NCBI RefSeq assembly: GCF_000717875.1
Contig: NZ_JOCT01000002.1
Location: forward strand, 62,001 to 126,000
Direction: 5' to 3'
DNA from: Streptomyces sp. NRRL S-455
GTDB lineage: Bacteria; Actinomycetota; Actinomycetes; Streptomycetales; Streptomycetaceae
DNA length: 64,000 bases
Under the pieces are notes generated by a model. The model was given only the letters and a program-made list of their open reading frames with translations, was not told the origin of the DNA and did no database searches. The position numbers and the translations under genes are program-made. Positions 6,740-34,858 of this stretch are shown here, piece by piece (position 1 is the stretch's first letter; each line of letters starts with the position of its first letter).

Positions 6740-7276
6740 GGACAGAGGCGCTGCTCGCTCTGCCCGCGCCGACACGGCGTCCGGTGCCCAGGTCGAGGGG
6801 TCCCGGAGCCGGGCGCAGGAAGCACTTGCCGCGGTGGAGCAGGCCTCCTCCACCTCCACGAGCACGGCGGGCTGGGACCTGTTGCCCCGGACCGCCATTC
6901 GGTCGAAGAACGGCGCGCCCCGCAGCAGCTTCGTGCGGCCGTTGATCCGGAGCGTGTCGGGGCCGACCGGGCAGGACAGAGGCAAGGCTTACCTTTGGGT
7001 TGTCAAGTACATTGGGCCCACTGTCAACCGGCGATTGCCCGGGCCGTCCGGGATCGCCAATTGGTCGAGTCGTCCATGGCATGGGCGAAGCCCGGATTCC
7101 CCGTCGGGGAGACGTCGCACGTGCCGTCCGCCGCCGCGACCAGCAGAACGGCGGTTGCCTCAATCGCTGACGGTCCACGTCCCGGAGCGTCGCCGAGGCC
7201 TTGTCGAACACCTCGCACGAGGCCGACACGACGACCTCGTGCAGCTCCTCCAGGGACCGACCTCGGAGTAGCTCAC
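6740..7276 (-). pseudogene. Decayed PPOX-family flavoprotein (MSMEG_1061-like) at the end of the leftward operon
   Basis: Pieces of one protein are scattered over all three minus-strand frames in the correct order: SLEELHEVVVSASCEVFDKA; ATAVLLVAAADGTCDVSPTG; QLAIPDGPGNRR; NVLDNPKVSLASVLPGR; DTLRINGRTKLLRGAPFFD; RMAVRGNRSQPAVLVEVEE; DPSTWAPDA. These follow the usual order of FMN-binding pyridoxamine-5'-phosphate-oxidase-like proteins of the MSMEG_1061 type (CDVSPxGxPPGF, LAIPDxPGNRR, NxLxNPxVGL, DTLRINGRA). At least four indels separate them, so this is genuine decay rather than one read error. A GTG at 7276-7274 overlaps the stop of the preceding ATP-grasp gene, suggesting it was once the coupled last gene of the biosynthetic operon. 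Confidence 0.75.
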
Positions 7277-8529
7277 CGGCCCGTCCCGGGCTCGGCGTCC
7301 GCCCGGCCGTCCCCGGTGACGACGACCGTCCTGGCGCACGCCTCCTCACAGGTCGCCAAAGCCGCGTCGGGGTCAGCACCGACCGCGATCACCTGACCGA
7401 TCCGGTCCCAGCTGGACCTGAGCGCCGCCACCTCGTCACCGGTGGAGACCGAGAGATCCAGTTCCACGACCCCCTCCAGGGCGCGGACCTCCTCGGCGCC
7501 CTCGATCCGTGACACCACCCCGGGCTCGGCGGTCAGGAAGCGGGTCGCGGCGGCCTGCCTCAACGGGGGCCGCTCGGTCGGGGCCGGCAGTCCGGGGCAC
7601 GGCCAGGCGACCGTGTAGGCCTCCATGTCGAAGCCGTACGCCGCTTCCACGAGATCCCTGATCCGGTCGCCGCCCGGCCGGTTGTGGGACTCGATCACCT
7701 GTGGTCCGTCCGGGGAGAGCCGCAGCTCGGTGTGGGTGGGACCGTGGACCACGCCCATGGCGTCCAGGAACTCCACGACGGCTGCCTCGACGGCGCGTTC
7801 GGCATCCATGTCGATCCGGGCCGGGATCACATGCCCCGCCTCCACGAAGTTGCCGTCGGTCAGCTTCTCCGTGACGGCGACGATCACATGACGGCCTTCG
7901 AAGGTGAAGGCCTCGACGCTGAACTCGGGCCCCTCGATATAGCCCTCGGCGACGAAGCGGTCCAGCGGGAAGTACTGGGCGAACTGGTGGTCGGAGGCGC
8001 GCAGTTCGACGATGCGGTCCCAGGCCGCGCCGACCTCCTGCGGCCCCCGCACCAGCTGGATGCCCAGGCTCGCGATGCCGTCGACCGGCTTCACGATGAA
8101 CGGGTAGCCGTGCGCGGCGCCGAATTCCTCCAGCGCCGCCCGGTCGATGACCTCGACCGCCGGAACTGTGCTGGCCCCGACCCGGGAGAGATGCTCGCGC
8201 ATGCTCAGCTTGTCCCGGAGCAGCCGGGCGACCTCGTGGGAGACGCCGCCGAGGCCCAGCAGGTCGTTGATCCGCCCGGCGATCTCCACGCCCGCCTCGC
8301 CGGTGGTGGCCACGCGCGTGAAGCCGTAGACCTTGTGGGCGGCCGTGACGATGGGCTCGACCACGGACCAGTCCGCGAAGTCGACGAGGAAGGCCGCGTC
8401 GACCAGCTTCGCATGCTCGGGGGTGAACTGCCCTGGCTGCTGGAGGTACACCACCCCGAGCCCCTGCTCCACGGCCTTGCGCACATTCTCGATCCGGCCG
8501 CCGATGATCAAGACTCGCTCTGCTGACAT
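7273..8529 (-). CDS. ATP-grasp ligase 1 (amino-acid/peptide ligase type)
   Basis: 418 residues, ATG 8529 after AAGGAAG. N-terminal Rossmann-like preATP-grasp domain (MSAERVLIIGGR), then the ATP-grasp fold: DKLSMREHLSRVG, the ATP-binding lysine in FIVKPVDGIASLG (about residue 145), FVAEGYIEGPEFSVEAF, and the Mg-binding loop VIESHNRPGGDRI. The ExNxRxGGD loop fits ligases joining amino acids through acyl phosphates (BacD/L-amino-acid ligase class). In a phosphonate cluster such enzymes couple the phosphono-amine or phosphono-acid to amino acids. It is one of three non-identical ATP-grasp genes and the last intact gene of the leftward operon. Substrate order cannot be read from sequence. Confidence 0.85.
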   Translation of the reverse strand: MSAERVLIIGGRIENVRKAVEQGLGVVYLQQPGQFTPEHAKLVDAAFLVDFADWSVVEPIVTAAHKVYGFTRVATTGEAGVEIAGRINDLLGLGGVSHEVARLLRDKLSMREHLSRVGASTVPAVEVIDRAALEEFGAAHGYPFIVKPVDGIASLGIQLVRGPQEVGAAWDRIVELRASDHQFAQYFPLDRFVAEGYIEGPEFSVEAFTFEGRHVIVAVTEKLTDGNFVEAGHVIPARIDMDAERAVEAAVVEFLDAMGVVHGPTHTELRLSPDGPQVIESHNRPGGDRIRDLVEAAYGFDMEAYTVAWPCPGLPAPTERPPLRQAAATRFLTAEPGVVSRIEGAEEVRALEGVVELDLSVSTGDEVAALRSSWDRIGQVIAVGADPDAALATCEEACARTVVVTGDGRADAEPGTGR

Positions 8530-8588
8530 ACGTCTTCCTTGTCCTGTGCGTGCTGGGGTTCCGTCGGACGGCTGAGCGCGGGCGCGGC

Positions 8589-9830
8589 TCAGGCGAGGGC
8601 GTCGTCGCTGATCTCCACGCGTGCGATCGCCCGCAACCGCTCGGCCAGAGCGGCGAGTTCTGTCGGACCCGGGCAGTCGAGCACGGCGTACGCCAGTCGG
8701 TCCCCGGAGTTCTCGGCGGGACGTACGGTCGCGCCGGGAGCCAGCCGGGCGGCATGGCGGACCACACCCTCCTGGGCCGCCCAGTCCGTCAGGTCGAGTG
8801 CCGCGAGGACCCCGGCCCGGCCGGCGCCGAGGAACAGGCTGCCCGCGGAGCGTATGGGTTCCCGGTCCGCAGGAGGCAGTTGCGGCTGCTCACCCAGGGT
8901 CAGCCGCAGGCAGGCCTCGTACACGTCGAAGTCGTGCGCCAGGGAGATGATCTCCAGGATGTGGTCGCCCGGGGTGCGCACCGCGACCTCCATGATCACG
9001 AGGTCGTCGTCGGCGCGGGCCCTGAACTCCAGGTGCGCGATCCCGGTGTTGAGGCCCAGGGCGGCCACCACACCGCGGCACAGCTCGTCGGCCGTTTTGC
9101 GCAGCACCGGACGCTGGGCTCCGTGGCCGGCCTCATGGAACAGCTCGACGAAGAACGGGGCGTCCGTGGTCTCCTTGCGGGTGAGGTTGGTGAACAGCAC
9201 CTGCCCGTCCCGGACCAGCGCCTCGACGCTGTACTCCGCTCCCTCGACATAGCACTCGACCAGCAGGGGGCCCTCGTCGTCGCGGCGGCGCACGGCGTCC
9301 TGCCACTGCTCGGGGGTGTCGATCCGCTCGACGCCCATGCTGCCCTGCAGGGCCACGGGTTTGACGACCACGGGCAGCCGGTCCAGGGCCCATTCGGAGG
9401 CGTCGGACAGCCGTACCGTGTGCCGGTGGCCAGGCTGCGGCAGGCCCGCGCGGTGGAACTCACCGCGCTGTAGTGCCTTGTTGCGGGAGACCATAGCGGC
9501 GTCGAGGCCCGGGCCGGGCACGCCGAGCCGGTGTTGCAGGATCGCCGTAGCGAGCACCTGTGGCTCGGCGAATCCCAGCACCGCGTCCGGGGCCAGCCGG
9601 CCGGCCAGTGCCATCGCCGGGGGCAGCCACGCCTCGTCCCGGGCCGGGACGCCCTCGACCGGCTCGAAGTCGACGACGCATGGGAACCGGGGGGCCAGTT
9701 CGGCGTGCCGGGCGGCGGTCTCCACCAGGCCCACCCTCAGGCCCATGCGCTGTGCCGCGCGGAGATAGCCCTCCGCCATGGCGCCCGCACCGACCAGTAT
9801 GACGGTCCGTTGCGTACCGCTCAGAGACAT
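8589..9830 (-). CDS. ATP-grasp ligase 2
   Basis: 413 residues, ATG 9830 preceded by AGGAG. The first ten bases overlap the end of the condensation-like gene. Begins SLSGTQRTVILVGAGAMAEG, a Rossmann start. Core motifs: VVVKPVALQGSMGV (ATP lysine and glycine loop), LVECYVEGAEYSVEAL, and IMEVAVRTPGDH. In the last, the usual Asn/Gly of the metal loop is Ala and the loop reads RTPGD, closer to BacD/RizB-like L-amino-acid ligases than to D-Ala-D-Ala ligase. A C-terminal lid follows (residues about 310-413). Likely makes a peptide or amide bond on the phosphonate scaffold. It is clearly distinct from ligases 1 and 3, so three separate coupling steps are plausible. Confidence 0.85.
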   Translation of the reverse strand: MSLSGTQRTVILVGAGAMAEGYLRAAQRMGLRVGLVETAARHAELAPRFPCVVDFEPVEGVPARDEAWLPPAMALAGRLAPDAVLGFAEPQVLATAILQHRLGVPGPGLDAAMVSRNKALQRGEFHRAGLPQPGHRHTVRLSDASEWALDRLPVVVKPVALQGSMGVERIDTPEQWQDAVRRRDDEGPLLVECYVEGAEYSVEALVRDGQVLFTNLTRKETTDAPFFVELFHEAGHGAQRPVLRKTADELCRGVVAALGLNTGIAHLEFRARADDDLVIMEVAVRTPGDHILEIISLAHDFDVYEACLRLTLGEQPQLPPADREPIRSAGSLFLGAGRAGVLAALDLTDWAAQEGVVRHAARLAPGATVRPAENSGDRLAYAVLDCPGPTELAALAERLRAIARVEISDDALA

Positions 9831-11275
9831 CTCGACTCCTGACTTGTCGGTTGCGACTGTTTCACCAGGTGCTGCAGTTCCTCCGCGCTCACCTCCCGGA
9901 TCGCGGCCGCGCACAGCAGCCGCTCCAGCGCCGCCATCCAGTGCTCGGCCCAGCCAGGGGTGTGCACCTGGGTGTCCACCTGTAGCACCAGCCGGATACC
10001 GGACTCGCTGACGTCGGCGCTCAGATAGCGGGTGGAGCGCCACACCAGATCGCTGGGGATCCAGCGGGTGAGACCGGCCGCCGCGGACTCCTCGAGCTCC
10101 ACCGCGGTCACCTCGCGGCGGGGCAGTGTGCTCGCCCGGGGCCGGTAGTTGAGCGTGGGCGTGATGTCCAGCCGGACGCCCCGCTCCCGCTCGACGGCAC
10201 GGTGCAGCTCGGCCAGCCGGTCCGGCGGATACGAGCCGAAGCGCAGCGCGCCCAGGGTGGCCGAGGCGGTGACACGGACCAGTTCCGGGAAGGAGGAGCC
10301 CGCCACGGGCACGCAGAACGGCACGGGCTGCGAACAGGGCACCACGGCGTTGACGGTCTCGGGGCGCGACCGGTTGGCGGCGAGCAGTTGCAGGTACCCC
10401 GTCAGGCTGTCGGCGAGGTGGGCGTCGACCGTGACCATGGCCGCGGCGAGCACGGTGGCGACGCTCTCCCCCGTGCGCAGCGACACGGCACCGGCCGCCA
10501 GGTCCAGCGCGGGCGAGGTGCGCGACAGGAACCGGTACCGGTCGGGGGATGCGGCGCCGTCCGGGGCGGGGGGTGCCGTCGGCATGGTGCGGAAGGCCTC
10601 GGCCGCTCGGCGCAGGGCGCGCTCCGCCGTGCGGCGGGCCGGCTCGGTCGCCTCGGCGGCCGCCTGTTCGTGAGGGCTGCGGCCCGCATCCCGGCTCCGG
10701 GCGGGGGGCCACTCGGGATGGCGTACGGCGACGGTGGAGACGAGGTGTTCGGTGACCGGCAGCAGGGCGAACGCGTCCACGGCGACATGGCTGAACACCA
10801 GCGCCAGGAAGCGGGGCCGGCCCGCGCGGCCTATCAGCGCGGCGCGTACCGGCCACTCCTCGGCGACGTCGAACGGTGTCGCGGCCAGTTCGTCCAGTAC
10901 GGCGGTCGCGGCCTCCGCCACCCCCCGGGCACCGTCGTCCGCGTCATGGACGGCGAGGCGCAAGGTGCCCTCCGCGTGGACGTGTTGCCCGGCTCCGGCG
11001 TCGGCGCCTGCGCCGGCGGTCGCACCGGCCGTGTCACGGACGACCGTGCTGCGCAGGCCCTCGAAGCGGTGCAACAGGTCCCGCAGGGCCGTCACGACAT
11101 CCTGCTCGCGCACATCAGCCCGCAGTTCGTACAGCCTGCTGATGGCGAGCCCACGCCCCAGCGGCCGGGCGGCGTCCGTCTCGGCCAGGTAGTACTGCTG
11201 GCTCCAGGTCAGTGGCGCCCGGCGTGCCTCGCCCGCCGCGAAGCGCACCGCGCGGTGCTCTGGGGTGGTCGGCAT
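9821..11275 (-). CDS. Stand-alone condensation-domain-like protein
   Basis: 484 residues from ATG 11275, three bases after the stop of ATP-grasp gene 3. The fold pattern is that of NRPS condensation/CoA-dependent acyltransferases: PLTWSQQYYLAE near the start (C1-like), RLYELRADVREQDVVTALRDLL, then the active-site segment LVFSHVAVDAFALLPV (about residue 170). In place of HHxxxDG it reads SHxxxDA. The second, catalytic His and the Asp are kept, while the first His is Ser and Gly is Ala. It probably takes an aminoacyl thioester from the free carrier protein (23018-23290) and joins it to an amine. The unusual motif may mean a non-standard acceptor such as a phosphonate. Confidence 0.7.
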   Translation of the reverse strand: MPTTPEHRAVRFAAGEARRAPLTWSQQYYLAETDAARPLGRGLAISRLYELRADVREQDVVTALRDLLHRFEGLRSTVVRDTAGATAGAGADAGAGQHVHAEGTLRLAVHDADDGARGVAEAATAVLDELAATPFDVAEEWPVRAALIGRAGRPRFLALVFSHVAVDAFALLPVTEHLVSTVAVRHPEWPPARSRDAGRSPHEQAAAEATEPARRTAERALRRAAEAFRTMPTAPPAPDGAASPDRYRFLSRTSPALDLAAGAVSLRTGESVATVLAAAMVTVDAHLADSLTGYLQLLAANRSRPETVNAVVPCSQPVPFCVPVAGSSFPELVRVTASATLGALRFGSYPPDRLAELHRAVERERGVRLDITPTLNYRPRASTLPRREVTAVELEESAAAGLTRWIPSDLVWRSTRYLSADVSESGIRLVLQVDTQVHTPGWAEHWMAALERLLCAAAIREVSAEELQHLVKQSQPTSQESRCL

Positions 11276-11280
11276 GACGG

Positions 11281-12561
11281 CTAGCCCTTGACCTCGGACT
11301 CGTCGACGGGCGACCACGTGAAGGTCAGCTTCTCGCCCGCCGCAACGGCACGGCCGAGCGCCTCGTCCCGGTCGGCGCCCTCGGCGATGATCCAGGCGGC
11401 GCGGTCCCGGTTCGACCCGTTGGCCTTGTAGACCATGCCCGGCTGCACACCGGGGCGCATGTGCACCTCGTGCACCCCCTCCAGGGCCTGTGCCTCGGCG
11501 ACGCCGTCGATGGCGTCGAGGCGGCCGAGCGGCGCCGACATCAGGAAGTGGACGACCGCGGTGCGGTCGCAGACGACGTTCAGGTCGGGGGTGGCCCCCA
11601 GCAGCGCGGTCATGTGGAGGCGGCACATGTCGACGCCGCTCGCGATCCGCACCGCTTCGGGGATCCGGTCGCCGGCGATCCGCCCGTTGACCTCGATGAC
11701 CCGGGCGTCCTTGTCGTCGGCGGTCAGCTTGAGTTCGACATGGGCGGGGCCCCAGGTCAGCCCGATCGCCTTGACGGCCTGCTCGGCCTTCTCGACGAGC
11801 AGGCGCTCCCGCTCGCCGGTGACCGCCGCCGGGAAGATGTGGCCCATTTCCAGGAACAGCGGGGGCGCGCTGCAGATCTTCTCGGTGAGGCCGAGCACCT
11901 TGCCGTGCATGACCTCCGCGGAGTACTCGGCCCCGGGGACGCACTCCTCGACGACCACGCGGGGGGTCACCTCCTGGCCGAGGTACTCGCCGATCCCCAG
12001 GATCTCCCGGGTGATCGCGTCGACTTCCCCGGCCGTCTCGCACCGGCGCACCCACAGGCTGCCGGTGAGGTCCAGCGGCTTGACCACGACCGGGAACCCG
12101 ATCGAGGTCGCGGCGGCCGCGGCCTCGTCCGCCGAGGAGCACACCTGGAAGCGCGGGTTGAGGCCGGGCGTCGCGGCCATCGCGGCACGCATGGACGCCT
12201 TGGAACGGCAGGCGGCCACGGCCGCCGGGTCCGGGCCGGGCAGACCCAGCCGGGCGGCCACCTGGGCGCCCATGTCGCAGTAGTACTCGTACACCGAGGC
12301 GACTCCGACGAGTTCGCCGTCCGCGGCGATCTCCCGGCAGGCCGCGACGACGGCGTCGGCGTCATGGGTGTCACAGGTGCGGATCTCCACGCCCAGCTCG
12401 GCGTAGTCGCGGATCAGCGAGGGCGCCATGGCCGCGGGCTGGGCCGCCACCACGACGGGGGTCACGCCCTGCTCCAGCAGGAACCGGGCACAGTCCTGGC
12501 CCGCGCCGGTCAGGGGGGACTCGACGAAGACCACGTAACGGGGAGTCTTCCGGTCGGACAT
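11281..12561 (-). CDS. ATP-grasp ligase 3
   Basis: 426 residues, ATG 12561 after AAGGAG. PreATP-grasp domain with RYVVFVESPLTGAGQD, then SKASMRAAM, the ATP lysine in VVVKPLDLTGSLWV (about residue 160), VVEECVPGAEYSAEVM, and the Mg loop ARVIEVNGRIAGDRI, with the classic Asn. C-terminal lid domain ends in a Glu/Lys tail. Member of the carboxylate-amine ligase ATP-grasp superfamily, probably joining an amino acid to the phosphonate product in the cytoplasm. It sits in the middle of the leftward operon between the MFS exporter and the condensation-like protein. Confidence 0.85.
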   Translation of the reverse strand: MSDRKTPRYVVFVESPLTGAGQDCARFLLEQGVTPVVVAAQPAAMAPSLIRDYAELGVEIRTCDTHDADAVVAACREIAADGELVGVASVYEYYCDMGAQVAARLGLPGPDPAAVAACRSKASMRAAMAATPGLNPRFQVCSSADEAAAAATSIGFPVVVKPLDLTGSLWVRRCETAGEVDAITREILGIGEYLGQEVTPRVVVEECVPGAEYSAEVMHGKVLGLTEKICSAPPLFLEMGHIFPAAVTGERERLLVEKAEQAVKAIGLTWGPAHVELKLTADDKDARVIEVNGRIAGDRIPEAVRIASGVDMCRLHMTALLGATPDLNVVCDRTAVVHFLMSAPLGRLDAIDGVAEAQALEGVHEVHMRPGVQPGMVYKANGSNRDRAAWIIAEGADRDEALGRAVAAGEKLTFTWSPVDESEVKG

Positions 12562-12613
12562 GGGGGTGCTCCTTGATCAGGCTTTTCGGGGGCCGGTCGG
12601 TTTCGAGGTCGCG

Positions 12614-13870
12614 TCAGGGGGAGGGGGCCGCGTCCGGTACCGCCCGCGGCTCCTCGGCGGGCAGGTGGCGCATCCGGACCAGCCGGGACAGGAGCAGCCA
12701 CAGGACTCCGGCGGTCATCCCGGCGCCCGCGACGAACAGGCCGCCGCGCACGCCGATCCATTCGCCGAGGGCACCGCCGATGAGCGAGCCGAGCGGGAGG
12801 ATGCCCCAGACGATGAACCGCACACTGGCGTTCATCCGCCCCAGCATCTCCGGCGGGCACAGGGCCTGCCGGATGCTGACCTGGCCGACGTTGTAGACCA
12901 CGATGCCGAAGCTGACGGTGAACCAGGGCACGGCGAACAGCGCGATCCCCCAGCCGCCGTGCGACAGCGGGATCAGCAAGGTGGTCGGCACGGTCAGCAG
13001 GTACGCCAGCCACATGGCGCGCACCTGCCCGATCCGCTCGGCGAGCCGGCCGGCCGCCGCCGCACCGAGGATGCCGCCGAGTCCGCTGACCGCCATCAGC
13101 ACACCGACGGTGGTCCCGGACAGCCCCAGCTCCTCGACCAGCAGCAGCATCACCAGCGGCAACATGACCGCGTAGAAGAAGTTGTACGTCGCGGCGGAGC
13201 CGGTGATGGCCCGGAACACCGGCTGCCGCAGCACGAACCGCAGGCCACTGCTGATCTCGGCCGTCATCCGACGCCGGTCCCCACGGGCCGGTGTCTCCTC
13301 GACGGTGCGCATCCGGGACACCAGCAGCGCCGACACCAGATGGCTCACGGCCTGGGAGGCGACGGTGACGGTGGCCCCCAGCAGCTGCACGAGCGAGCCG
13401 CCGAGCGTGGGCCCGGCGAGCCGGGCGACGGCGTTGGTGCTCTCCAGCCTGGCGTTGCCCTCGACGAGGTGGGCCCGGCCCACCACGGCCGGGATGTACG
13501 ACTGGTAGGCGATTTCGTAGAAGGCGGTGGCGAAGCCGATCGCCAGGGTCGCCGCCATCAGCCCGGTGAAGTCGATCCAGTCCAGGGCGAACCCGACGAC
13601 GAGGCACGCCAGGAAGAGCGCGCGCAGCAGGTCGCAGGCGATGAGGATCGGCCGGCGGCGCATCCGGTCGACCAGCGTGCCCGCCGGCAGACCGATGAGC
13701 AGGAAGGCGATGGTCTGCGCCGCCTGGAGCAGCCCCATCTGGAAGGGGGTGGCGGCCAGCGTCGTCGCGGCCAGGAGCGGCAGCGCCACCCGGCTCATGT
13801 TGGCGCCGACGGTGCTGGCCGTCTGGGCGGCCCAGAAGAAGCGGAAGTCCCGGTGCTTGAGCAGTGACAT
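12614..13870 (-). CDS. MFS exporter, probable product efflux
   Basis: 418 residues from ATG 13870 (MSLLKHRDFRFFWAAQT, a start typical of the MFS_3/EntS-like group). About 12 hydrophobic helices, with the conserved loop between helices 2 and 3 (GTLVDRMRRRP, MFS motif A). A longer open frame upstream is rejected as Pro/Ser/Arg-rich. Within the leftward operon, seven bases downstream of tldE-like, so co-transcribed. The likely role is export of the finished phosphonopeptide across the plasma membrane, which would also give self-protection. Confidence 0.85.
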   Translation of the reverse strand: MSLLKHRDFRFFWAAQTASTVGANMSRVALPLLAATTLAATPFQMGLLQAAQTIAFLLIGLPAGTLVDRMRRRPILIACDLLRALFLACLVVGFALDWIDFTGLMAATLAIGFATAFYEIAYQSYIPAVVGRAHLVEGNARLESTNAVARLAGPTLGGSLVQLLGATVTVASQAVSHLVSALLVSRMRTVEETPARGDRRRMTAEISSGLRFVLRQPVFRAITGSAATYNFFYAVMLPLVMLLLVEELGLSGTTVGVLMAVSGLGGILGAAAAGRLAERIGQVRAMWLAYLLTVPTTLLIPLSHGGWGIALFAVPWFTVSFGIVVYNVGQVSIRQALCPPEMLGRMNASVRFIVWGILPLGSLIGGALGEWIGVRGGLFVAGAGMTAGVLWLLLSRLVRMRHLPAEEPRAVPDAAPSP

Positions 13871-16579: not shown

Positions 16580-17221
16580 TCACGGTTGGAGCCGCTGGTG
16601 CGACCAGTCGGCGGTGTCGGCGCCGCGGTCGTAGCGCAGCCGCCGGTGCAGCCGGTCGGGGCTGCCGTACCAGAACTCGATGGCGTGCGGCACGAGCCGG
16701 TAGCCGGTCCATTCGTCAGGGCGGGCGACCGGGCCGCCCGCGGCGGTCAGGGCCTTCGCGCCGGCCTTGAGCTCGGCCTCGTCGGCGAGGGGGCGGCTCT
16801 GCCGGGAGACCGCCGTGGTGGCCTGCGCGGCGAGCGGCCGCCGGGCGAACAGCTCGTCGGACTCCGCGCCGGTGAGGACCTCCACCGGGCCCTGCACGGT
16901 GAGCTGCTGGAGCGTCTCCCGCCAGTAGAAGGTGAGCGACCCCCAGGGCGTCACGGCCAGGTCCTGTCCCTTGCGGCTGCCCCGGAAGCTGGTGAACAGC
17001 AGCCCCCGGTCGTCGATCTCCTTGACCAGCAGCACCCGGCTCGACGCCCGGCCCGACCGGTCGGCGGTGGCCAGGACCGCCGCGTACGGCTCACGGACCT
17101 CGCGGGCCACCGCGGAGTCCAGCCAGGCGCGCATCAACGGGTAGGGGTCCTGCGGAGGGGTGTCGAACTCGGGCAGCACCAGACTGGTGTCACCGCTGAG
17201 AGTCTGTGTCTGTGCCGCCAT
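16580..17221 (-). CDS. PNPOx/PhzG-like FMN-dependent oxidase
   Basis: 213 residues, ATG 17221 after AAGGAG. A full-length pyridoxamine-5'-phosphate oxidase family protein: N-terminal dimer strand with DPYPLMRAWLDSAV, the FMN-binding core ASSRVLLVKEIDDRGLLFTS then FRGSRKGQDLA, and the PNPOx C-terminal dimerisation motif (WTGYRLVPHAIEFWYGSPDRLHRR, split here only for description). Housekeeping PdxH and the phenazine enzyme PhzG share this layout. In a cluster it more likely oxidises a pathway amine or dihydro intermediate than vitamin B6. Part of a redox trio with the MDMPI-like and FAD proteins immediately upstream. Confidence 0.8.
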   Translation of the reverse strand: MAAQTQTLSGDTSLVLPEFDTPPQDPYPLMRAWLDSAVAREVREPYAAVLATADRSGRASSRVLLVKEIDDRGLLFTSFRGSRKGQDLAVTPWGSLTFYWRETLQQLTVQGPVEVLTGAESDELFARRPLAAQATTAVSRQSRPLADEAELKAGAKALTAAGGPVARPDEWTGYRLVPHAIEFWYGSPDRLHRRLRYDRGADTADWSHQRLQP

Positions 17222-28269: not shown

Positions 28270-29130
28270 TCACGCGTCGAGCTTTTGCCAGTCGGCCATC
28301 CGCTGCAGGTCGAAGATGTCCCGCACCGAGGCGATCTCCGACTCCAGCAGGGTGGTGTGGCCCGCCTCGTAGATGGCGCGGTAGGTGTTGCGCATGGCGG
28401 ACAGTGCGGCGCGCATGCCCTGGTTGGCGTAGATGACGACGGACACGCCGGCCGCACGTACCTCGTCGATGTGCCAGTCCGGGTAGGTGGTGGGGACGAT
28501 GACCACCGGTACGCGGTTGTCCCACCGGTCCAGGAAGGCGAGCACCTCTTCATTGGTGCGCGCTTTGGAGTGGATGAGTACGGCGTCGGCGCCGGCGTCG
28601 GCGTAGGCGTTGCAGCGGCTCACCGCCTCGTCGACGCCCGCGCCGGAGATCAGGGCCTCGGTGCGGGCGATGAGGAAGAAGTCTTCGGTGGACTGCACGG
28701 CCTTGGCGGTCTGTATCTTGCCGGTGAAGGCCGCGGTGTCGAGCAGCGTCTGGTCACCGTTCGCGAAGCTGTTCATCTTTGGGAACAGCTTGTCCTCCAT
28801 GCACACGGCGGTGATGCCGGCGCCCTCGAACTCGTGGACCATGTGGGCCACGTTGTAGTTGCCGCCGTATCCGGTGTCGACGTCGGCGACGACGGGGATG
28901 TCGAGGGCCTTCTGGATGTTGGCGGCGGCCTCCAGATACTCGGTCATGCTCAGGATGCTGGCGTCGGGCAGGCATCGGGAGGCCGACACCTCCAGGCTCG
29001 ACGACCACACGGCCTGGAATCCGGCCTGCTGGGCCAGGACACCGCTGAGCGCGTGGTGGGCGCCCGCGAGGCGGACCACGTCGTGCGCGTCGAGTACGGA
29101 GCGGAACGAGGGATAGCTGCGCTTGAGCAT
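28270..29130 (-). CDS. pepM: Phosphoenolpyruvate mutase, first committed phosphonate step
   Basis: 286 residues, ATG 29130 after AGGAAGG. Isocitrate-lyase/PEP-mutase superfamily with the diagnostic EDKLFPKMNS at residues 112-121 (EDK-x5-NS), which separates true PEP mutases from phosphonopyruvate hydrolases and carboxy-PEP mutases. The Mg site is VADVDTGYGG (81-90), and AVWSSSLEVSASR and FFLIARTEALISG complete the active site. It rearranges PEP to phosphonopyruvate, forming the C-P bond. The equilibrium favours PEP, so a pulling reaction is needed. None of the usual decarboxylase is present. First gene of the leftward operon, divergent from the dehydrogenase gene. Confidence 0.95.
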   Translation of the reverse strand: MLKRSYPSFRSVLDAHDVVRLAGAHHALSGVLAQQAGFQAVWSSSLEVSASRCLPDASILSMTEYLEAAANIQKALDIPVVADVDTGYGGNYNVAHMVHEFEGAGITAVCMEDKLFPKMNSFANGDQTLLDTAAFTGKIQTAKAVQSTEDFFLIARTEALISGAGVDEAVSRCNAYADAGADAVLIHSKARTNEEVLAFLDRWDNRVPVVIVPTTYPDWHIDEVRAAGVSVVIYANQGMRAALSAMRNTYRAIYEAGHTTLLESEIASVRDIFDLQRMADWQKLDA

Positions 29131-29295: not shown

Positions 29296-29343
29296 TTGGC
29301 AATTTCTTGCCAAGAAGCGTCACGGCAATGCAGGATCGTTGAC
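29296..29343 (+). promoter_or_regulatory. Palindromic operator and promoter of the rightward operon (divergent promoter region)
   Basis: TTGGCAATTTCTTGCCAA (29296-29313) is a perfect seven-base inverted repeat around TTTC. Its right arm is the -35 box TTGCCA (29307-29312). After 18 bases, CAGGAT (29331-29336) serves as the -10. The expected start point falls on or next to the ATG at 29344, so the mRNA may be leaderless; no Shine-Dalgarno is visible. The 213-base gap also must hold the leftward promoter; TTGACC then TAGCTT with 19 bases between (minus strand, 29292-29262) is a weak candidate. The palindrome matches the operator at 6678-6695 in 16 of 18 positions or better when read in the promoter direction. 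Confidence 0.6.
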
Positions 29344-30294
29344 ATGACCTATCGAGCGCGCGTCGTCGTACTGGATCCCGTTTCCCCGGGCGCCCTTGCG
29401 GACCTGGAACAGGACCACGAGGTCGTGGTCCGGCTGGGCCCCGGCCATGACGAACTCCTCGAGCTGGCCGCCGATGCCGACGCCCTCGTCGTGCGCAGCG
29501 GAGTGACCATCACCGGCGACGTCATCCGTTCCGGAAGCCGTCTGAAAGCGGTGGCGAGGGCCGGCTCGGGGACCGACAACATCGACCTGGACGCCTGCCG
29601 CGCGGCGGGAGTGCAGGTGTTCAACTTCCCCGGCGTCTCCGCACCCGCCGTCGCCGATCTGGCCATCGGCCTCATGCTCGCCGTGACCCGCAAGATCGCC
29701 CTCGCCGACCGGCAGGTCCGCAGCGGGCAGTGGAACAAGCCCCGGCTCGCCGGGCCGGGTCTCACGGACCGGGTCCTCGGCGTGGTGGGCCTGGGCCCGA
29801 TCGGCTCCCGGATCGCTCGGCTCGGCTCGGCGTTCGACATGCGCGTGCTCGCCGCCGTGGACCGCGCCACGCCGGCCCGTGACGAGGAGCTGCGCGGCCG
29901 CGGGATCGAGCGGGTCGCCCTGCCCGACCTCCTCCGCGCGGCGGACATGGTGTGCCTCGCGGTGCCGCTCACTGACCGGACGAGGAACCTCATCGGCGCC
30001 GAGGAACTGGCCCGAATGCACACCGGCGCCTACCTCATCAACGTCTCCCGCGGCGGTGTCGTCGACGAGGACGCCCTGCTGCGGGCGCTGAAGGACGGCG
30101 TGATCGCCGGCGCCGCCCTCGACGTGCACGGGCAGGAGTCCGGCACCCCGGCGCTGGCCGCCCTGGACAACGTGGTGCTCACTCCGCACATAGGCGCCAC
30201 CACCACCGACGCCCAGGACCGGGTCGGCCGTCTGCTCGCCGCGGACCTGCGCGCCGTCCTGGTCGGCGGCCGGGCGACGAACAGGGTGTGCTGA
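29344..30294 (+). CDS. D-2-hydroxyacid dehydrogenase (SerA-like), probable phosphonopyruvate reductase
   Basis: 316 residues from ATG 29344. The family plan is complete: substrate loop VVRSGVTITGDVI and GSGTDNIDLDACRA, NAD site LGVVGLGPIGSRIARL, catalytic Arg in INVSRGGVVDEDAL, Glu in the ALDVHGQESG segment, and His in VLTPHIGAT. Relatives include 3-phosphoglycerate dehydrogenase, without the regulatory ACT domain. Phosphonopyruvate is a one-atom-shorter look-alike of 3-phosphohydroxypyruvate, so reduction of phosphonopyruvate to phosphonolactate is the simplest role and would pull the PEP mutase reaction. First gene of the rightward operon, in a divergent pair with pepM. The substrate is inferred. 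Confidence 0.8.
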   Translation: MTYRARVVVLDPVSPGALADLEQDHEVVVRLGPGHDELLELAADADALVVRSGVTITGDVIRSGSRLKAVARAGSGTDNIDLDACRAAGVQVFNFPGVSAPAVADLAIGLMLAVTRKIALADRQVRSGQWNKPRLAGPGLTDRVLGVVGLGPIGSRIARLGSAFDMRVLAAVDRATPARDEELRGRGIERVALPDLLRAADMVCLAVPLTDRTRNLIGAEELARMHTGAYLINVSRGGVVDEDALLRALKDGVIAGAALDVHGQESGTPALAALDNVVLTPHIGATTTDAQDRVGRLLAADLRAVLVGGRATNRVC

Positions 30295-30296
30295 GC

Positions 30297-31400
30297 ATGA
30301 AGTCGAACACCCTCACGCCCGGGACCACTGAGCCGAAGACCATGAAGGCGGCCGTCCTCACCGGACGTCGAACCATCACCTACCAGGACACCGCCGCCCG
30401 CGAGCCCGGACCCGGCGAGCTGCTCGTCCGGGTCGACGCCACCGGCATCTGCGGCTCCGACCTCGCTGCCTACCGCGGCACCCACCCCTACAAGACGGCA
30501 CCCGCCGTCCTCGGTCACGAGTTCTCCGGGACCGTGGTGGCCGTCGGCGCCGAGGTGACCGGCTTCGCCGTGGGGGACCGGGCGTGCTCGGCGGCCTTCT
30601 CGCACTGCGACGCCTGCGCCGAGTGCCTGCGCGGCGCACCCCACCTGTGTGCCCGGAAGCTGAACCTCAGCCACCTCGACTGGACCGGCTCGTTCGCCGA
30701 ACTGGTCGTCCTGCGGCCCAACATGGCCCATCGGCTGCCCCCCGACCTGCATCCCGTGGCCGGTGCGCTCGTCGAGCCGCTCTCCATCGGCCTGCACGCG
30801 GTACGGCTCGTCGGCGAGGGCGCGGGCCGCAGCGTCCTTGTCCTCGGCTCCGGCACGATCGGCCTCAGCTGCCTGGTCGCCGCCCGGCAGCTCGGCCACG
30901 GCGTGGTGGCCTGCGTGGACGTCGGCCCCGAGAAGGGCGAACTCGCCCGCGGGCTCGGCGCCGACGCCTACGCCGACGCCCGCGAGAGCGACCCGGTGCC
31001 CGAGGCACTGGCGGCCCTGGGCGGTCCGGCGGACGTGGTGGTGATCGCCGCCGGATACCCCGGTGTCACCGACCAGGCGCTGCGCGCAGTACGGCCTGGC
31101 GGTGACATCGTGATCGTCAGCTACTTCGAGGACCGGCATCCGGTCGACCTCAACGCCCTCGTCGGACGCGAGGTGACCGTGCACGGATCGGCGCTGTCCA
31201 CGCCCCGGGACTTCACCGAGGTGATCGACCAGCTCGCGGCCGGGACTCTCGACGTGCGGCCCATGGTCACCCACCACTTCCCGCTCGCCGACACCGAGTC
31301 GGCGCTGCGTCTGATGGACCGGGCCGATGTCCCCACCGGCAAGATCATGCTGCATGTGACCACCGACCCGAACGAGTTCACGAACGGATGGAGCCAATGA
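30297..31400 (+). CDS. Zinc-dependent medium-chain alcohol dehydrogenase
   Basis: 367 residues from ATG 30297; GTG 30288 and ATG 30342 (KAAVLTG, the usual family start) are alternatives. GICGSDLAAYRG carries the catalytic Cys, GHEFSGTVVAVG the next ligand, and CDACAECLRGAPHLC is the four-Cys structural zinc loop. The Rossmann part is SVLVLGSGTIGLSCLVAA. Closest in style to sorbitol/threonine dehydrogenases that oxidise a secondary alcohol next to a polar group. In the proposed pathway it could oxidise the C2 hydroxyl of dihydroxypropylphosphonate to a ketone for the PhnW-like aminotransferase. Overlaps the next gene by four bases. Confidence 0.85.
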   Translation: MKSNTLTPGTTEPKTMKAAVLTGRRTITYQDTAAREPGPGELLVRVDATGICGSDLAAYRGTHPYKTAPAVLGHEFSGTVVAVGAEVTGFAVGDRACSAAFSHCDACAECLRGAPHLCARKLNLSHLDWTGSFAELVVLRPNMAHRLPPDLHPVAGALVEPLSIGLHAVRLVGEGAGRSVLVLGSGTIGLSCLVAARQLGHGVVACVDVGPEKGELARGLGADAYADARESDPVPEALAALGGPADVVVIAAGYPGVTDQALRAVRPGGDIVIVSYFEDRHPVDLNALVGREVTVHGSALSTPRDFTEVIDQLAAGTLDVRPMVTHHFPLADTESALRLMDRADVPTGKIMLHVTTDPNEFTNGWSQ

Positions 31401-32494
31401 GCAACGGCATACGGGCAGCGGTCATCGGAGGAACCGGCTACACGGGCGGCGAGATGTGCCGCCTGCTGCTGGGCCATCCGGCGGTCACCGAGATCCTGCC
31501 GACGTCCCGCGGCGAGGAGTCCTTCGAGCGGGTGCACCCGAACCTGCTCGGCTCCGGGCTGCGGTTCCACGACGCGGACGAGGTCACCGCGGCCGCCGGC
31601 GACCTGGACGTCGTCTTCCTGTGCACGCCGTCCGGCGAGGCCATGCGCCGGACACCCGAACTGCTCAAGGCCGGGGCCCGCGTGATCGATCTCAGCGCCG
31701 ACTTCCGGTTCGCCGACCCGCAGGCCTACCGGGCGGCCTACGGCGCCGAGCACACCGCCCCCGAGCTGCTGCCCGAAGCGGTGTACGGCGTCACAGAGTT
31801 GCACCGGGACCTGCTGCCCGAGGCCCGTCTGGTGGCCAACCCGGGCTGTTACGTCATCACGGCGCTGCTCGGCCTCGAACCGCTGCTGTCCGCCGGTTTC
31901 GCCGAGCCCGGCGCGCCGCTGCACATCGCGGCGGTCAACGGGACCACGGGCGCCGGCATCAAGCCGCGCACCGAGATCCTGCACGCCGAGGTCTTCGGGT
32001 CGATGCTGCCGTACAGCCTCCAGGGCCACCGGCACGCGCCCGAGCTGGAGGACCGGCTCTCCGGCCCGGCCGGCGGACCGGTCACCGTCGACCTCAGCAC
32101 CGCGCACGGCCCCTTCGCCCGCGGCATCCACATCCAGGCGAGCGTCCGCGTCCGGGAGGAGCTGCGCGAGGAGTTCTCGCGCGAACTGCTCCTCACCCGC
32201 TACACCGAGCGCTACGGCACCGGCGCCGACGGCGAGTTCTTCGTCCGGGTCAACGCCGAACCCCAGCTCGGGGGCCTCACCGACAAGGACTACCGCAGGT
32301 ACCCGGGCGTCGCCGCGGTGGTCGGCTCCAACTTCTGCCACATCGGAGTGGACTATGACGCACGGCGCGGTATCGCCAAGGTCGTCTCCGTCAGCGACAA
32401 CCTGGTCAAGGGCGCGGCGGGTTCGGCCCTGCAGAACATGAACGTGATGCTCGGTCACGACGAGACGACCGGGCTGCGCACCTATGGCCTCTGA
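31397..32494 (+). CDS. ArgC-like acyl-phosphate reductase
   Basis: 365 residues, ATG 31397 in an ATGA overlap. N-terminal NADP site AAVIGGTGYTGGEMCRLL, catalytic Cys in LVANPGCYVITALL (about residue 152), and a C-terminal domain with GRAPHFSTAHG-like VDLSTAHGPFARGIH and VVGSNFCHIGVDYD. This is the N-acetyl-gamma-glutamyl-phosphate reductase family, which reduces acyl phosphates to aldehydes like GAPDH does. No other arginine or lysine genes are nearby, but a phosphoglycerate-kinase-like gene overlaps downstream. Together they would make an acyl phosphate and reduce it, on phosphonolactate rather than on an amino acid. Housekeeping argC duplication is the alternative. Confidence 0.82.
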   Translation: MSNGIRAAVIGGTGYTGGEMCRLLLGHPAVTEILPTSRGEESFERVHPNLLGSGLRFHDADEVTAAAGDLDVVFLCTPSGEAMRRTPELLKAGARVIDLSADFRFADPQAYRAAYGAEHTAPELLPEAVYGVTELHRDLLPEARLVANPGCYVITALLGLEPLLSAGFAEPGAPLHIAAVNGTTGAGIKPRTEILHAEVFGSMLPYSLQGHRHAPELEDRLSGPAGGPVTVDLSTAHGPFARGIHIQASVRVREELREEFSRELLLTRYTERYGTGADGEFFVRVNAEPQLGGLTDKDYRRYPGVAAVVGSNFCHIGVDYDARRGIAKVVSVSDNLVKGAAGSALQNMNVMLGHDETTGLRTYGL

Positions 32495-33740
32495 CGCCGG
32501 GTGGGTCGACCCGCTCGGCGGCGTGCCGCTGCTGAGCGCACAGCGCATCACCGCGGGCGAACGCTGGATCTTCTCGGCCGGGTTCAACGTGGACGCGGCC
32601 CTGACCAGCACCGGGCGGATCGACAGCGAGCTGGACGACCTGCGGCGGCTCGCCGGGGCGGGCGCGCGGGTGGCCGTGCTGTCCCACCAGGGCAGCCACC
32701 ACAACGACACCGCGACCGCGCTGGACCACGTCGCCGGCCATCTCTCGCGGCGCTTGGGCCGACAGGTGCGCTACGTCCCCGAGAACGCCTCGGACGCGGC
32801 GGTGCGGGCAGCCGAGGCGCTGGCGCCCGGTGAGATCGCCGTTTTCGGCAACACCCGTCACCACGCCGGGGAGGAACGGGGCGATCCCGAACTGGCCCGA
32901 AGATTCGCGCTGCTGGGCGACATGGTCGCCGTGGGCGGCTTCTCCAAGGCGCACCGCGCTCATGCCTCCAACACCGGTGTGCTGCGTCTGCTGCCGGGCC
33001 ATGCCGCACGGAGCCTGGTGACGGAGGTCCGGCTCCTCGCGCCCTGGGCGAGACCGGAGGAGGGGGTGTTCCGCGCGGCCGTGCTCGGCGGGCGCAAACC
33101 CGAGAAGACCCTGGTCGGCCTGGTCCACGCGATGCGCACCTTCGACCTGGTGGTGCCGGGCGGCATGGTGCTCAACACAGTGCTGCGCGCTCTGGGCCAC
33201 GACCTCGGCTCCTCCGAACTGGGCAGCAAGCCCGACGTCTGCCTGGAGGCCGTACGCGGTGTGCTGGACGCACCGGCGAAGGCGCGGCTGCACGTGCCCC
33301 GGACGGTGTGGGTGGCGCCGGTGGACGGACGGCGGCTCGTGGGCGAGGCCCGGCCCGTCGCCGTCGCCGACGGAGTGCCGACGGGGCACGCCGTCGTGGA
33401 CTTCGAACTGGAGCCGTGGGCAGTCGAGTTGCTGGCCGGCGCCGGCTCCGCCGTGCTGGCCGGGACACCGTCCCGGTACCTCGACGGACAGGTCAGGTCC
33501 GCGAACGCCGTCCTGTCCGCGCTGTCGCGCACGCCCGGGCCGGCGCTGCTGCTCGGCGGCGACACGGTGGCCGAACTCCCCTGGCGGGGCGCGGTGTCGA
33601 CGGGCGGCGGGTCGGCGCTGCAACTGCTCGCTACCGGTACCTGCGCGGTGCTGGACGCGCTGCGCGACAACGCCCGCCGCGCGAGGGGCGAGGGCCGCGA
33701 CCCCGCCGACGACAACGTCATGGATGGAGTGAGCACATGA
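32484..33740 (+). CDS. Phosphoglycerate-kinase homologue, proposed phosphonolactate kinase
   Basis: 418 residues from ATG 32484, overlapping the ArgC-like stop by 11 bases. PGK landmarks are present but drifted: FSAGFNVDAALTSTGRIDSE (for RVDFNVPL, then the catalytic-region Arg), AVLSHQGSH (for MSHLGRP), AVFGNTRHHAGEERGDPE (for LLENTRFHPGEE), FSKAHRAHASNTG (GTAHRAHAS), AVLGGRKPEKTLV (GGAKVxDK), and GGDTVAELPW then VSTGGGSALQLL. These keep the ATP and triose-phosphate sites. 3-Phosphonolactate is the C-P counterpart of 3-phosphoglycerate with one fewer oxygen. The enzyme would phosphorylate its carboxylate, feeding the ArgC-like reductase. A second PGK inside a biosynthetic cluster is unusual. 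Confidence 0.8.
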   Translation: MASDAGWVDPLGGVPLLSAQRITAGERWIFSAGFNVDAALTSTGRIDSELDDLRRLAGAGARVAVLSHQGSHHNDTATALDHVAGHLSRRLGRQVRYVPENASDAAVRAAEALAPGEIAVFGNTRHHAGEERGDPELARRFALLGDMVAVGGFSKAHRAHASNTGVLRLLPGHAARSLVTEVRLLAPWARPEEGVFRAAVLGGRKPEKTLVGLVHAMRTFDLVVPGGMVLNTVLRALGHDLGSSELGSKPDVCLEAVRGVLDAPAKARLHVPRTVWVAPVDGRRLVGEARPVAVADGVPTGHAVVDFELEPWAVELLAGAGSAVLAGTPSRYLDGQVRSANAVLSALSRTPGPALLLGGDTVAELPWRGAVSTGGGSALQLLATGTCAVLDALRDNARRARGEGRDPADDNVMDGVST

Positions 33741-34858
33741 AGGTGGACCTCGATGTCCCCACCCACGTGGAGTTCGGCCGCGGTGAGCTGGACCGGGCCG
33801 GGAGGCATGCTACGGCGCTCGGCACGCACGCGCTCGTGGTCACCGGGCGGAGCGCGGCACGGTCCCACGGCTATCTGGACCGGGTCGTGACGTCCCTGGA
33901 GTCCGCGGGGGTGCGCGCCACGGTCTTCGACCGGGTGTCGGCCAACCCGAGGTCCGACGAGGTGGACGAGGCGACCGCGCAAGCCCGCGCGCAGGGCTGC
34001 GACCTCGTCGTCGGCCTCGGTGGCGGCAGTGCCCTGGACGCGGCCAAGGGGGTGAGCGTCACCGCGCCCACCGGCGGCAGCGTGCGGGACCTCATCGGTG
34101 TGACTCTGGGCCCGCAGGCGCCCAGGCTGCCGCTGCTGGCCGTTCCGACGACGGCGGGCAGCGGCTCGGAGGTCACCAAGGGGGCGATCATCACGGACAC
34201 GGTGCGCAACTTCCGCTCCGGCATCCGCGGTGACGCCGTCTTCCCGCGCACGGCCATCGTCGACCCCGACCTGATCGCGTCGGTGCCGCGCGCGATCATG
34301 GCGGAGACCGTCTTCGACTCGTTCGCCCATGCCGTCGAGGGCTGCGTCGCGGCCCGCGCGGACGAGGCGAGCCGGTCCCGGGCGCACCAGGCCATCGAGC
34401 TGATCGCCGCGCATCTGCCGGCCGTGCTGAAGGGCGAGGACTCTCCCGAGTCCCGCGAGGCGCTGTGCCGGGCGTCCCTGCTGGGAGGCGTGAACGTCGC
34501 CAACGTCAGCACCTGCCTTCCGCACCGGCTGCAGCAGGCCATGGGCTCCCTGCCAGGGGTGGACCTCTCGCACGGCCGGGGCCTGGCGGTGCTGTACCCC
34601 AGCTGGCTGCGGCACACCGCGCCCCTGGTGCCGGACGAGTTCGCCGCGGTCGCCGAGCTGCTGGGCGGCGACACTGTCCACGACGCGGTGGGCGGGCTCT
34701 TGGCCTCGGCGGGCCTAGCGGCCCGGCTGCGGGACTGCGGGGTGGCCAAAGACGACCTGGACCGGCTGGTCGAGGGCGTGACGGGCAATCTCGACAACGA
34801 CCCGGCGGGCCAGGTGAACCGCGAGTATCTGTTCACCCTGTACGCCGAGTCGTTCTGA
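33737..34858 (+). CDS. Iron-containing (type III) alcohol dehydrogenase
   Basis: 373 residues, ATG 33737 in an ATGA overlap with the PGK-like gene. Fe-ADH family: NAD site LVVGLGGGSALDAAKG, VPTTAGSGSEVTKGA, and metal ligands Asp/His in the FDSFAHAVEG segment and His in LPHRLQQAMGS and SHGRGLAVLYP. FomC/PhpC of other phosphonate pathways, which reduce phosphonoacetaldehyde, belong to this family. Here it would reduce 2-hydroxy-3-phosphonopropanal to 2,3-dihydroxypropylphosphonate. Last gene of the rightward operon, followed by a bidirectional hairpin. Confidence 0.85.
   Translation: MKVDLDVPTHVEFGRGELDRAGRHATALGTHALVVTGRSAARSHGYLDRVVTSLESAGVRATVFDRVSANPRSDEVDEATAQARAQGCDLVVGLGGGSALDAAKGVSVTAPTGGSVRDLIGVTLGPQAPRLPLLAVPTTAGSGSEVTKGAIITDTVRNFRSGIRGDAVFPRTAIVDPDLIASVPRAIMAETVFDSFAHAVEGCVAARADEASRSRAHQAIELIAAHLPAVLKGEDSPESREALCRASLLGGVNVANVSTCLPHRLQQAMGSLPGVDLSHGRGLAVLYPSWLRHTAPLVPDEFAAVAELLGGDTVHDAVGGLLASAGLAARLRDCGVAKDDLDRLVEGVTGNLDNDPAGQVNREYLFTLYAESF

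Follow-up and report, generated by a model that had tools for sequence, protein, structure and literature searches.

A Streptomyces gene cluster that combines PEP mutase with a candidate three-carbon module, a PcxL-family N-oxygenase and diaminopropionate genes

Phosphonates have proved to be a source of both antibiotics and herbicides; the bottleneck is the prediction of product from genes. The window analyzed here is a 64,000-nucleotide stretch of Streptomyces sp. NRRL S-455 (contig NZ_JOCT01000002.1, positions 62,001 to 126,000; host genome 8.2 Mb), and our subject is its 24-gene cluster (g6 to g29) around pepM, the gene for phosphoenolpyruvate (PEP) mutase. Several described systems resemble it in part (articles given by PMC number are cited from excerpts). 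The pcx and hpx clusters of Streptomyces sp. NRRL S-481 and S. regensis NRRL WC-3744 combine, according to the literature, PepM with an N-oxygenase of the PcxL/HpxL family, as here. PcxL forms an oxime on 2-aminoethylphosphonate in phosphonocystoximate biosynthesis (PMC10404684). In the valinophos-type route, which concerns 2,3-dihydroxypropylphosphonate, a 2-hydroxyacid dehydrogenase of the g25 family branches from phosphonopyruvate by converting it to phosphonolactate (PMC12871164), and conjugation is carried out by the ATP-grasp enzyme VlpF (PMC12723261); ATP-grasps are found here, too. The phosphonoalamide cluster (pnaA-D) likewise pairs PepM with ATP-grasp ligases that build phosphonopeptides (PMC11867202). 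However, its PnaA is of the aspartate-aminotransferase type and makes phosphonoalanine, whereas the only aminotransferase of the window is a class V, PhnW-like enzyme, and the window's cluster, unlike that one, carries a reductive three-carbon (C3) operon. The sbnA and sbnB genes of staphyloferrin B have equivalog-level matches here, but no siderophore synthetase is present among the 24 genes. Each part of the cluster is of a known kind and the combination is without a found description: the hits listed from the open-access literature gave none, the main valinophos and PcxL/HpxL papers lying outside that search, and to this extent the first-pass annotation of this DNA, which named no characterized cluster of the sort, stands. 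We propose, with a probability of roughly 0.55, that the product couples an N-oxygenated C3 aminophosphonate to L-2,3-diaminopropionate and additional amino acids.

The cluster consists of 19 leftward genes (7273-29130) and five rightward genes (29344-34858), a layout that was given at first and reproduced by independent gene calling. Intergenic gaps range from -10 to 73 bp in the leftward row and from -11 to 2 bp in the rightward row, and the divergent pepM and g25 are separated by a 213-bp region (Table 1). Families were assigned by Pfam and NCBIfam profile scans of the cluster proteins. The scans recovered the families already named (PepM, SbnA/SbnB, an adenylation (A) protein, a carrier (T), three ATP-grasps, a FomA-like kinase, TldD/TldE, PNPOx, MDMPI and MFS proteins) and added three that the first-pass annotation lacks: NTP_transf_5 (g20), a PhnW-like aminotransferase (g16) and a thymidylate-kinase-like protein (g18). 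What had been called an FAD enzyme is indeed a flavin enzyme, narrowed here to a PcxL/HpxL/CreE-family N-oxygenase (g15). The five-gene rightward operon is also present; its genes, which had been left unnamed, encode a 2-hydroxyacid dehydrogenase, a Zn-dependent alcohol dehydrogenase, an ArgC-like reductase, a phosphoglycerate kinase (PGK)-like protein and an Fe-dependent alcohol dehydrogenase (g25-g29). The locus is almost certainly a phosphonate biosynthetic cluster. The EDK-x5-NS motif said to mark such clusters is present in g24 as EDK-LFPKM-NS, the protein matches PF13714, its nearest structure in the PDB is a PepM, and it is the sole PepM match in the host genome at an E-value of 1e-65.

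Table 1. Features of the cluster and its surroundings, with window coordinates, strand and the match or model behind each assignment.
Feature	Coordinates	Strand	Basis
g5: XRE-type/TPR regulator	4993..6120	-	HTH_31 + TPR
Operator-like palindrome TTGGCAA-N4-TTGACAA upstream of g5	6678..6695	+	1 mismatch
g6: ATP-grasp L-amino-acid ligase	7273..8529	-	ATP-grasp_4 + LAL_C2
g7: ATP-grasp ligase	8589..9830	-	ATP-grasp_4 + LAL_C2
g8: free-standing condensation-fold protein, SHVAVDA motif	9821..11275	-	NRPS model E 7e-4; AlphaFold model + Foldseek
g9: ATP-grasp ligase	11281..12561	-	ATP-grasp_4 + LAL_C2
g10: MFS exporter	12614..13870	-	MFS_1/MFS_3
g11: TldE/PmbA-like	13878..15182	-	PmbA_TldD_3rd
g12: TldD-like, HEACCH (HExxxH) motif	15179..16534	-	PmbA_TldD_3rd and 2nd
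g13: PNPOx/PhzG-type FMN oxidase	16580..17221	-	NF038138 294 bits, cut-off 270
g14: MDMPI/DinB mycothiol-dependent-type enzyme	17288..18001	-	PF11716, TIGR03083
g15: PcxL/HpxL/CreE-family flavin N-oxygenase, 742 aa	18005..20233	-	nearest PDB 8cp2, E 9e-43
g16: PhnW-like aminotransferase	20284..21411	-	TIGR03301 359.7 bits, cut-off 360.8; nearest PDB 1m32
g17: FomA-like kinase	21424..22377	-	AA_kinase; FomA model 197 bits, far under cut-off 550
g18: thymidylate-kinase-fold P-loop kinase	22374..23021	-	model (mean pLDDT 78) matches dTMP kinases
g19: free carrier protein, GLDS site	23018..23290	-	PF00550
g20: NTP_transf_5 nucleotidyltransferase-like	23364..24548	-	PF14907 151 bits
g21: free adenylation domain, predicted pocket DIWELTADDK	24545..26194	-	PF00501, TIGR01733
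g22: SbnB	26191..27219	-	TIGR03944 equivalog, 406 bits, cut-off 327
g23: SbnA	27249..28217	-	TIGR03945 equivalog, 384 bits, cut-off 350; nearest PDB S. aureus SbnA
g24: PEP mutase PepM	28270..29130	-	PF13714 over cut-off; nearest PDB PepM 5unc, E 1e-83
Perfect palindrome TTGGCAA-N4-TTGCCAA, divergent pepM/g25 promoter region	29296..29313	+	
g25: D-2-hydroxyacid (PGDH-like) dehydrogenase, proposed phosphonopyruvate reductase	29344..30294	+	PF02826; TIGR01327 285 bits, cut-off 454
g26: Zn-dependent alcohol dehydrogenase	30297..31400	+	PF08240/PF00107
g27: ArgC-like acyl-phosphate reductase	31397..32494	+	TIGR01850 317 bits, cut-off 234
g28: PGK-like, proposed phosphonolactate carboxyl kinase	32484..33740	+	PF00162 140 bits
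g29: Fe-dependent alcohol dehydrogenase	33737..34858	+	PF00465
g30: DUF402/FomD-like, convergent	34889..35497	-	PF04167; FomD model 87 bits, cut-off 320

No thiamine-diphosphate enzyme family was matched by Pfam among the 24 cluster genes. When tblastn was run with split and fused phosphonopyruvate decarboxylases of related loci as queries, none was found in the window or in the stretches from Streptomyces sp. I6, S. anulatus NRRL B-2873 and Streptomyces sp. SBT349. The best scores of the decarboxylase model (cut-off 312 bits) in the whole genomes were 29 bits for the window's strain, 33 for I6, 41 for S. anulatus and 36 for SBT349. The same model found the two halves of the enzyme in the S. 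californicus genome and one true match in that of S. acidiscabies, within its other, C2-type cluster. Since the cluster and genome show no phosphonopyruvate decarboxylase, a three-carbon phosphonate is expected, with a head group that is probably C3 and formed without this enzyme. The sequence families offer two candidates for the step that pulls phosphonopyruvate forward, the g25 dehydrogenase and the g16 aminotransferase. Together, g25-g29 form a set that can be described as mock glycolysis. The g28 protein shares 32% identity with the PGK of the host and keeps R38, N25, H62, R121, R168 and the nucleotide loops, which we take to be the catalytic residues of PGK; D23 and R65, of the 3-phosphoglycerate site, are changed. 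A second ArgC, scoring above g27, is carried elsewhere in the host genome. From family and context, we infer the reactions of g25-g29 that are set out below.

Related loci were sought by a PepM pattern scan of 84,980 species genomes, which yielded 27 loci and which reaches close relatives only and may have left out the host genome. In the genus sample, PepM was detected at 1e-65 in 28 of 392 genomes, and nine of these neighborhoods were read as such (the window's own, four of type B and four pcx/hpx-like). Gene presence was tabulated for 18 compared loci, listing identities from 38% upward. Type A comprises the window, Streptomyces sp. I6 and S. anulatus NRRL B-2873, all with g6-g30; the latter two hold the same cluster in compact form at 81-97% identity. 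The g6 ATP-grasp of I6 (L093 9724-10979) is called as two open reading frames (ORFs; 331 and 81 aa), possibly through a frameshift or sequencing error. The 20.9-kb locus of SBT349 contains pepM and the C3 and N-oxygenase core (74-86%); its only difference from the window's locus is the lack of two gene blocks, g23-g19 and g12-g6. In the SBT349 genome, neither a TldD relative at 1e-30 nor an SbnB above cut-off was found. The C3 and N-oxygenase core, again lacking the Sbn and TldD blocks, is present in S. acidiscabies as well. Strain NRRL B-16521 of this species carries two pepM clusters with g15/g16 relatives: one (L017/L092) has the C3 module, and the other (L025) has a phosphonopyruvate decarboxylase in fused form, along with a 562-aa protein judged radical-SAM-like by eye.

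Type B comprises nine loci (S. californicus, S. bikiniensis, S. lonarensis, S. griseus WC-3645, S. flaveolus, S. hokutonensis, WC-3549, S3(2020) and SCUT-3). They share with the window the Sbn-A-NTP block (57-72% identity) and, as far as the stretches reach, the TldD/E-MFS-ATP-grasp-C block (51-77%), two contigs ending after TldD. FomA-like, PhnW-like and N-oxygenase genes are also present. In place of g25-g29, which are absent, type B has a TauD dioxygenase gene beside pepM (nine of nine) and a split phosphonopyruvate decarboxylase (four of nine, the four whose stretch extends that far). No relative of g18 or of the PhzG-like g13 was found in type B. Streptosporangium carneum has the Sbn block, TauD and the split decarboxylase, and its stretch, as far as it was read, shows no relatives of g12-g6. 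A P-loop protein of about 345 aa (L060 14381-15430, L008 19708-20745) was seen in the type B loci reached and in Streptosporangium; it is HPr-kinase-like by eye, has no Pfam match and may replace g18. The simplest account of these loci is a mosaic, in which an SBT349-like core would carry, or have retained, two blocks common to type B. As for the unusual gene set first claimed for this cluster, the full set recurs among the compared loci in I6 and S. anulatus only; its blocks are not unique, as nine type B loci share Sbn-A-NTP.

Four further loci (G336, G293, G190 and G006) were taken as pcx/hpx-like. In each, a pepM, a PhnW-like gene and an N-oxygenase gene stand in a row, with 49-55% identity to g24, g16 and g15. 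All four carry a phosphonopyruvate decarboxylase (C2 head group), which the window's cluster is without, whereas the C3 operon and the Sbn, TldD/E and L-amino-acid ligase relatives, all present in the window, were not found in the stretches read. WAC 01529 and NRRL F-6492, which we take as valinophos-like in general kind, have relatives of g25, g27, g28 and g29 with pepM but none of g15, g16, g22 or g23, and none of g26 at 38% or above (the extended WAC 01529 stretch holds one at 35%). WAC 01529 additionally carries a g30 relative and an ATP-grasp.

The head group is probably also aminated and N-oxidized, because the PcxL/HpxL/CreE-family g15 adjoins the PhnW-like g16. The only PDB relative of g15 at an E-value of up to 1 is a Streptomyces L-aspartate N-hydroxylase (8cp2/8cp5), which has been grouped with FzmM, CreE and PcxL (PMC10404684); the family assignment was made through this structure and article. 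Aspartate was ruled out as the substrate of g15, since three of the five aspartate contacts of 8cp2 are replaced (R13 by Ser, N413 by Asp, and R416), with R276 and R577 kept. In a 27-row tree, R416 is missing from 23 of 23 rows of the g15 clade and kept in four of four aspartate-type rows, and g15 groups with SBT349 and two PepM-less genomes, not with type B. In alanosine-type chemistry, an N-oxygenase acts on diaminopropionate. This substrate was also ruled out for g15, because g15 accompanies pepM in SBT349, S. acidiscabies and the pcx/hpx-like loci, where the stretches read contain no Sbn relatives. Judging from these comparisons, g15 most likely oxidizes the nitrogen of an aminophosphonate.

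Among the 120 g15 homologues listed (261 were found at 1e-100), a PepM domain is fused in nine: P0084, P0087, P0090, P0091, P0095, P0097, P0102, P0106 and P0109. Two of these fusions come from assemblies labelled Solirubrobacterales. The two PepM-less genomes in the tree, G300 (L052/L053 17062-20645) and G100 (L054/L055 16973-20583), are both complete, and no PEP mutase scores above cut-off in either. Each contains a cassette of a g18-like kinase, a g15-like N-oxygenase and a 106-110 aa protein. The cassettes are 80-83% identical to each other, and their flanks have no further shared neighbors except one 27% pair. The label MazG-like was dropped as weak for the third gene, with 17 bits against a cut-off of 22 in one genome and no match in the other.

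The cluster quite likely makes diaminopropionate, as was first read from its Sbn genes: those for SbnA and SbnB are adjacent, both score above their equivalog cut-offs, and both occur in types A and B and in Streptosporangium. An apparent SbnA without SbnB in Streptosporangium was rejected, since SbnB lies 2.6 kb past the first locus; in S. caelestis, SbnB was found on other contigs only. The expected mixture of nonribosomal peptide synthetase (NRPS)-like and ligase machinery is also present, with A, carrier and condensation (C)-fold proteins and three ATP-grasps with LAL_C2. The A, T and C-fold proteins are encoded by separate genes and do not form a modular one-chain A-T-C assembly. In the pocket of g21, at positions that we take from gramicidin synthetase, the residues are D, I, W, E, x, T, A, D, D and K; the eight positions other than the variable fifth and the last are identical in 16 of 17 rows, three of the rows being duplicates. 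The acidic residues would suit a diamino acid, and diaminopropionate is a candidate substrate; a literature search with the pocket string gave nothing. The g8 protein has no Pfam family match, but its predicted model (8-sequence alignment, mean pLDDT 75) resembles PDB condensation domains (best E 4e-18; TM by query 0.52-0.60 and rmsd about 7-10 Å among 50 matches listed), in keeping with its first description as condensation-like. Diaminopropionate probably feeds this A/T/C system. Upstream of pepM, Streptosporangium carneum (L008 8086-9976) encodes a carrier together with another A domain, which is 44% identical to g21 and differs at one pocket position.

TldD/E enzymes have been described as maturing a peptide-nucleotide (PMC6429109). 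We rejected TldD/E as a sign of a ribosomally synthesized, modified peptide, since the leftward gaps of at most 73 bp leave no room for an ordinary precursor gene within the row; this idea is also weakened by the lack of TldD/E in S. lonarensis. In the type B locus of that species (L011/L062), only a 79-aa ORF is located between the MFS and TauD genes.

Palindromes are located upstream of both g5 and pepM. Allowing up to three mismatches, the window contains three matches where 0.5 would be expected, a number reached in 0 of 100 shuffles; the third of them, at 62649, is not evidently connected with the cluster. The palindrome is exact in I6 and S. anulatus. All nine type B loci have it with one or two mismatches, some 200 bp upstream of pepM; it takes a three-mismatch form in SBT349 and was not found in Streptosporangium. 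The pepM promoter elements are visible in the alignment only. The helix-turn-helix of g5 is cut at the called ATG, and the upstream frame was read; the true start is probably about 70-90 bp further upstream. Relatives of g5 lie beside the cluster in I6 (94%), SBT349 (71%) and S. lonarensis (53%), and none was found in the S. anulatus stretch read. It is likely that g5 is a cluster-situated regulator, and it may bind the palindromic sites. The true cluster is likely to extend beyond the 24 genes to include g5 (4993 to about 6200) and g30 (34889-35497), because relatives of g5 and g30 adjoin the core in three and six of the 18 compared loci, respectively.

In the pathway that we propose from these gene assignments, PepM makes phosphonopyruvate, a step for which the sequence evidence is strong. 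Next, g25 would reduce phosphonopyruvate to phosphonolactate and so draw the unfavorable PepM equilibrium forward, the PGK-like g28 would phosphorylate the phosphonolactate carboxylate, and the ArgC-like g27 would reduce the acyl phosphate to phosphonolactaldehyde, with g29 and g26 adjusting alcohol oxidation states. The rightward operon would thus mirror, on a phosphonate, the steps from 3-phosphoglycerate to glyceraldehyde-3-phosphate. Transamination of phosphonolactaldehyde by g16 would give an amino-hydroxypropylphosphonate, whose amine nitrogen g15 would oxidize to a hydroxylamine or oxime, and g14 may supply a mycothiol-type sulfur. SbnA and SbnB, which are well identified, would make diaminopropionate; the A domain g21 would load it on the carrier, the condensation-fold g8 would transfer it, up to three ATP-grasp ligases would add amino acids and TldD/E would trim the product. 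Diaminopropionate and phosphonate would then be parts of one molecule. The FomA-like and thymidylate-kinase-like kinases may keep the phosphonate masked inside the producer, export would fall to the MFS protein, and g5 would exert control via the operator at the pepM and g5 promoters. The first-pass annotation had predicted a phosphonopeptide containing diaminopropionate. Its phosphonate cluster with diaminopropionate genes and NRPS-like and ligase enzymes is upheld, but it had not foreseen the C3, N-oxidized head group, which changes the predicted product.

Several observations weigh against this scheme. PepM scores 304 bits with TIGR02320, just missing the equivalog cut-off of 320, and g25 scores 285 bits compared to 454 for the PGDH model. 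The score of g16 is 1 bit below the 2-aminoethylphosphonate transaminase cut-off, and its substrate role is a prediction. The proposed regulator g5 has relatives in only three of the 18 compared loci. Neither the g14 step nor trimming would be universal, since no g14 relative was found in the S. acidiscabies locus and no TldD/E in that of S. lonarensis. What ties diaminopropionate to the phosphonate in one molecule is co-localization and a shared operator only, and the roles of g13, g20, g26 and g30 are guesses. Finally, the adjacent g18-like and g15-like genes of the two complete PepM-less genomes are 75-79% identical to those of the window. These rows are nearest to g15 in the tree, so members of this clade of N-oxygenases may have roles beyond phosphonate biosynthesis as well.

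These same g18-g15 pairs suit the strongest alternative, which is an ordinary diaminopropionate phosphonopeptide with a simple head group (phosphonoalanine or dihydroxypropylphosphonate) and an N-oxygenase that serves another purpose. SbnA/B, A and T proteins are present for such a product, and ATP-grasp ligases are known to build both phosphonoalamides (PMC11867202) and valinophos-type conjugates (PMC12723261). However, g15 and g16 stay with pepM in types A and B, the core-only loci and the four pcx/hpx-like loci, and PepM is fused to g15 homologues as described above. N-oxidation therefore looks to be part of the head-group chemistry, and we regard this alternative as unlikely.

Slightly less likely is a variant product of the proposed pathway, a fosmidomycin-like hydroxamate phosphonate. 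It would be reached through phosphonolactaldehyde, 3-amino-2-hydroxypropylphosphonate, N-hydroxylation by g15 and acylation by g8 with carrier-bound diaminopropionate, and would represent a further independent natural route. We take 3-(N-hydroxyamino)-2-hydroxypropylphosphonate to be the skeleton of the old antibiotic FR-33289. If the hydroxamate reading is true, the peptide would be an uptake handle for a DXR-type inhibitor.

A shade more doubtful is that the locus makes two co-regulated products, a C3 phosphonate from the SBT349-like core and a separate diaminopropionate peptide from the two extra blocks. Two species do have the core without the Sbn and TldD blocks, and these blocks are exactly what separates the window from SBT349. 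Yet the Sbn block is found together with pepM and the N-oxygenase in Streptosporangium and all nine type B loci, and in the window it lies in one long leftward row with pepM and the operator site. The least probable account is a phosphonocystoximate-type end product, with an oxime, a mycothiol-derived thiohydroximate and a peptide that serves as temporary carrier or protection and is removed by TldD/E, for which the PcxL family of g15, the presence of an MDMPI enzyme in SBT349, type A and those type B loci read far enough to cover it, and the known TldD/E maturation of a peptide-nucleotide (PMC6429109) can be cited, but the four pcx/hpx-like loci have phosphonopyruvate decarboxylase and no g14 relative, and S. 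lonarensis has no TldD/E.

If the proposed N-oxygenated C3 aminophosphonate is the true product, it would mean one new head group, a PGK relative with a phosphonate substrate and a broader range of substrates in the PcxL family. The loci provide a natural swap experiment, in which three strains combine the Sbn-A-NTP genes and the aminotransferase/N-oxygenase pair with the C3 module and nine sister loci have these genes without it, the C2 split decarboxylase being present in all four of the latter whose stretch extends that far. Streptomyces sp. I6 and S. anulatus NRRL B-2873 are public and both have g6-g30, which opens the question to study in strains other than that of the window. I6 has been counted with two phosphonate clusters in a pepM survey, which in the excerpts names no product (PMC12723261).

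Within the window, no RNA family was detected at Rfam thresholds and no tRNA by ARAGORN. To the right of the cluster, positions 38787-43490 contain genes for LUD-domain, Fe-S/LUD and CCG proteins (LutABC-like lactate utilization), followed by a permease-like gene identified by eye, and these LutABC-like genes mark the right flank as ordinary metabolism.

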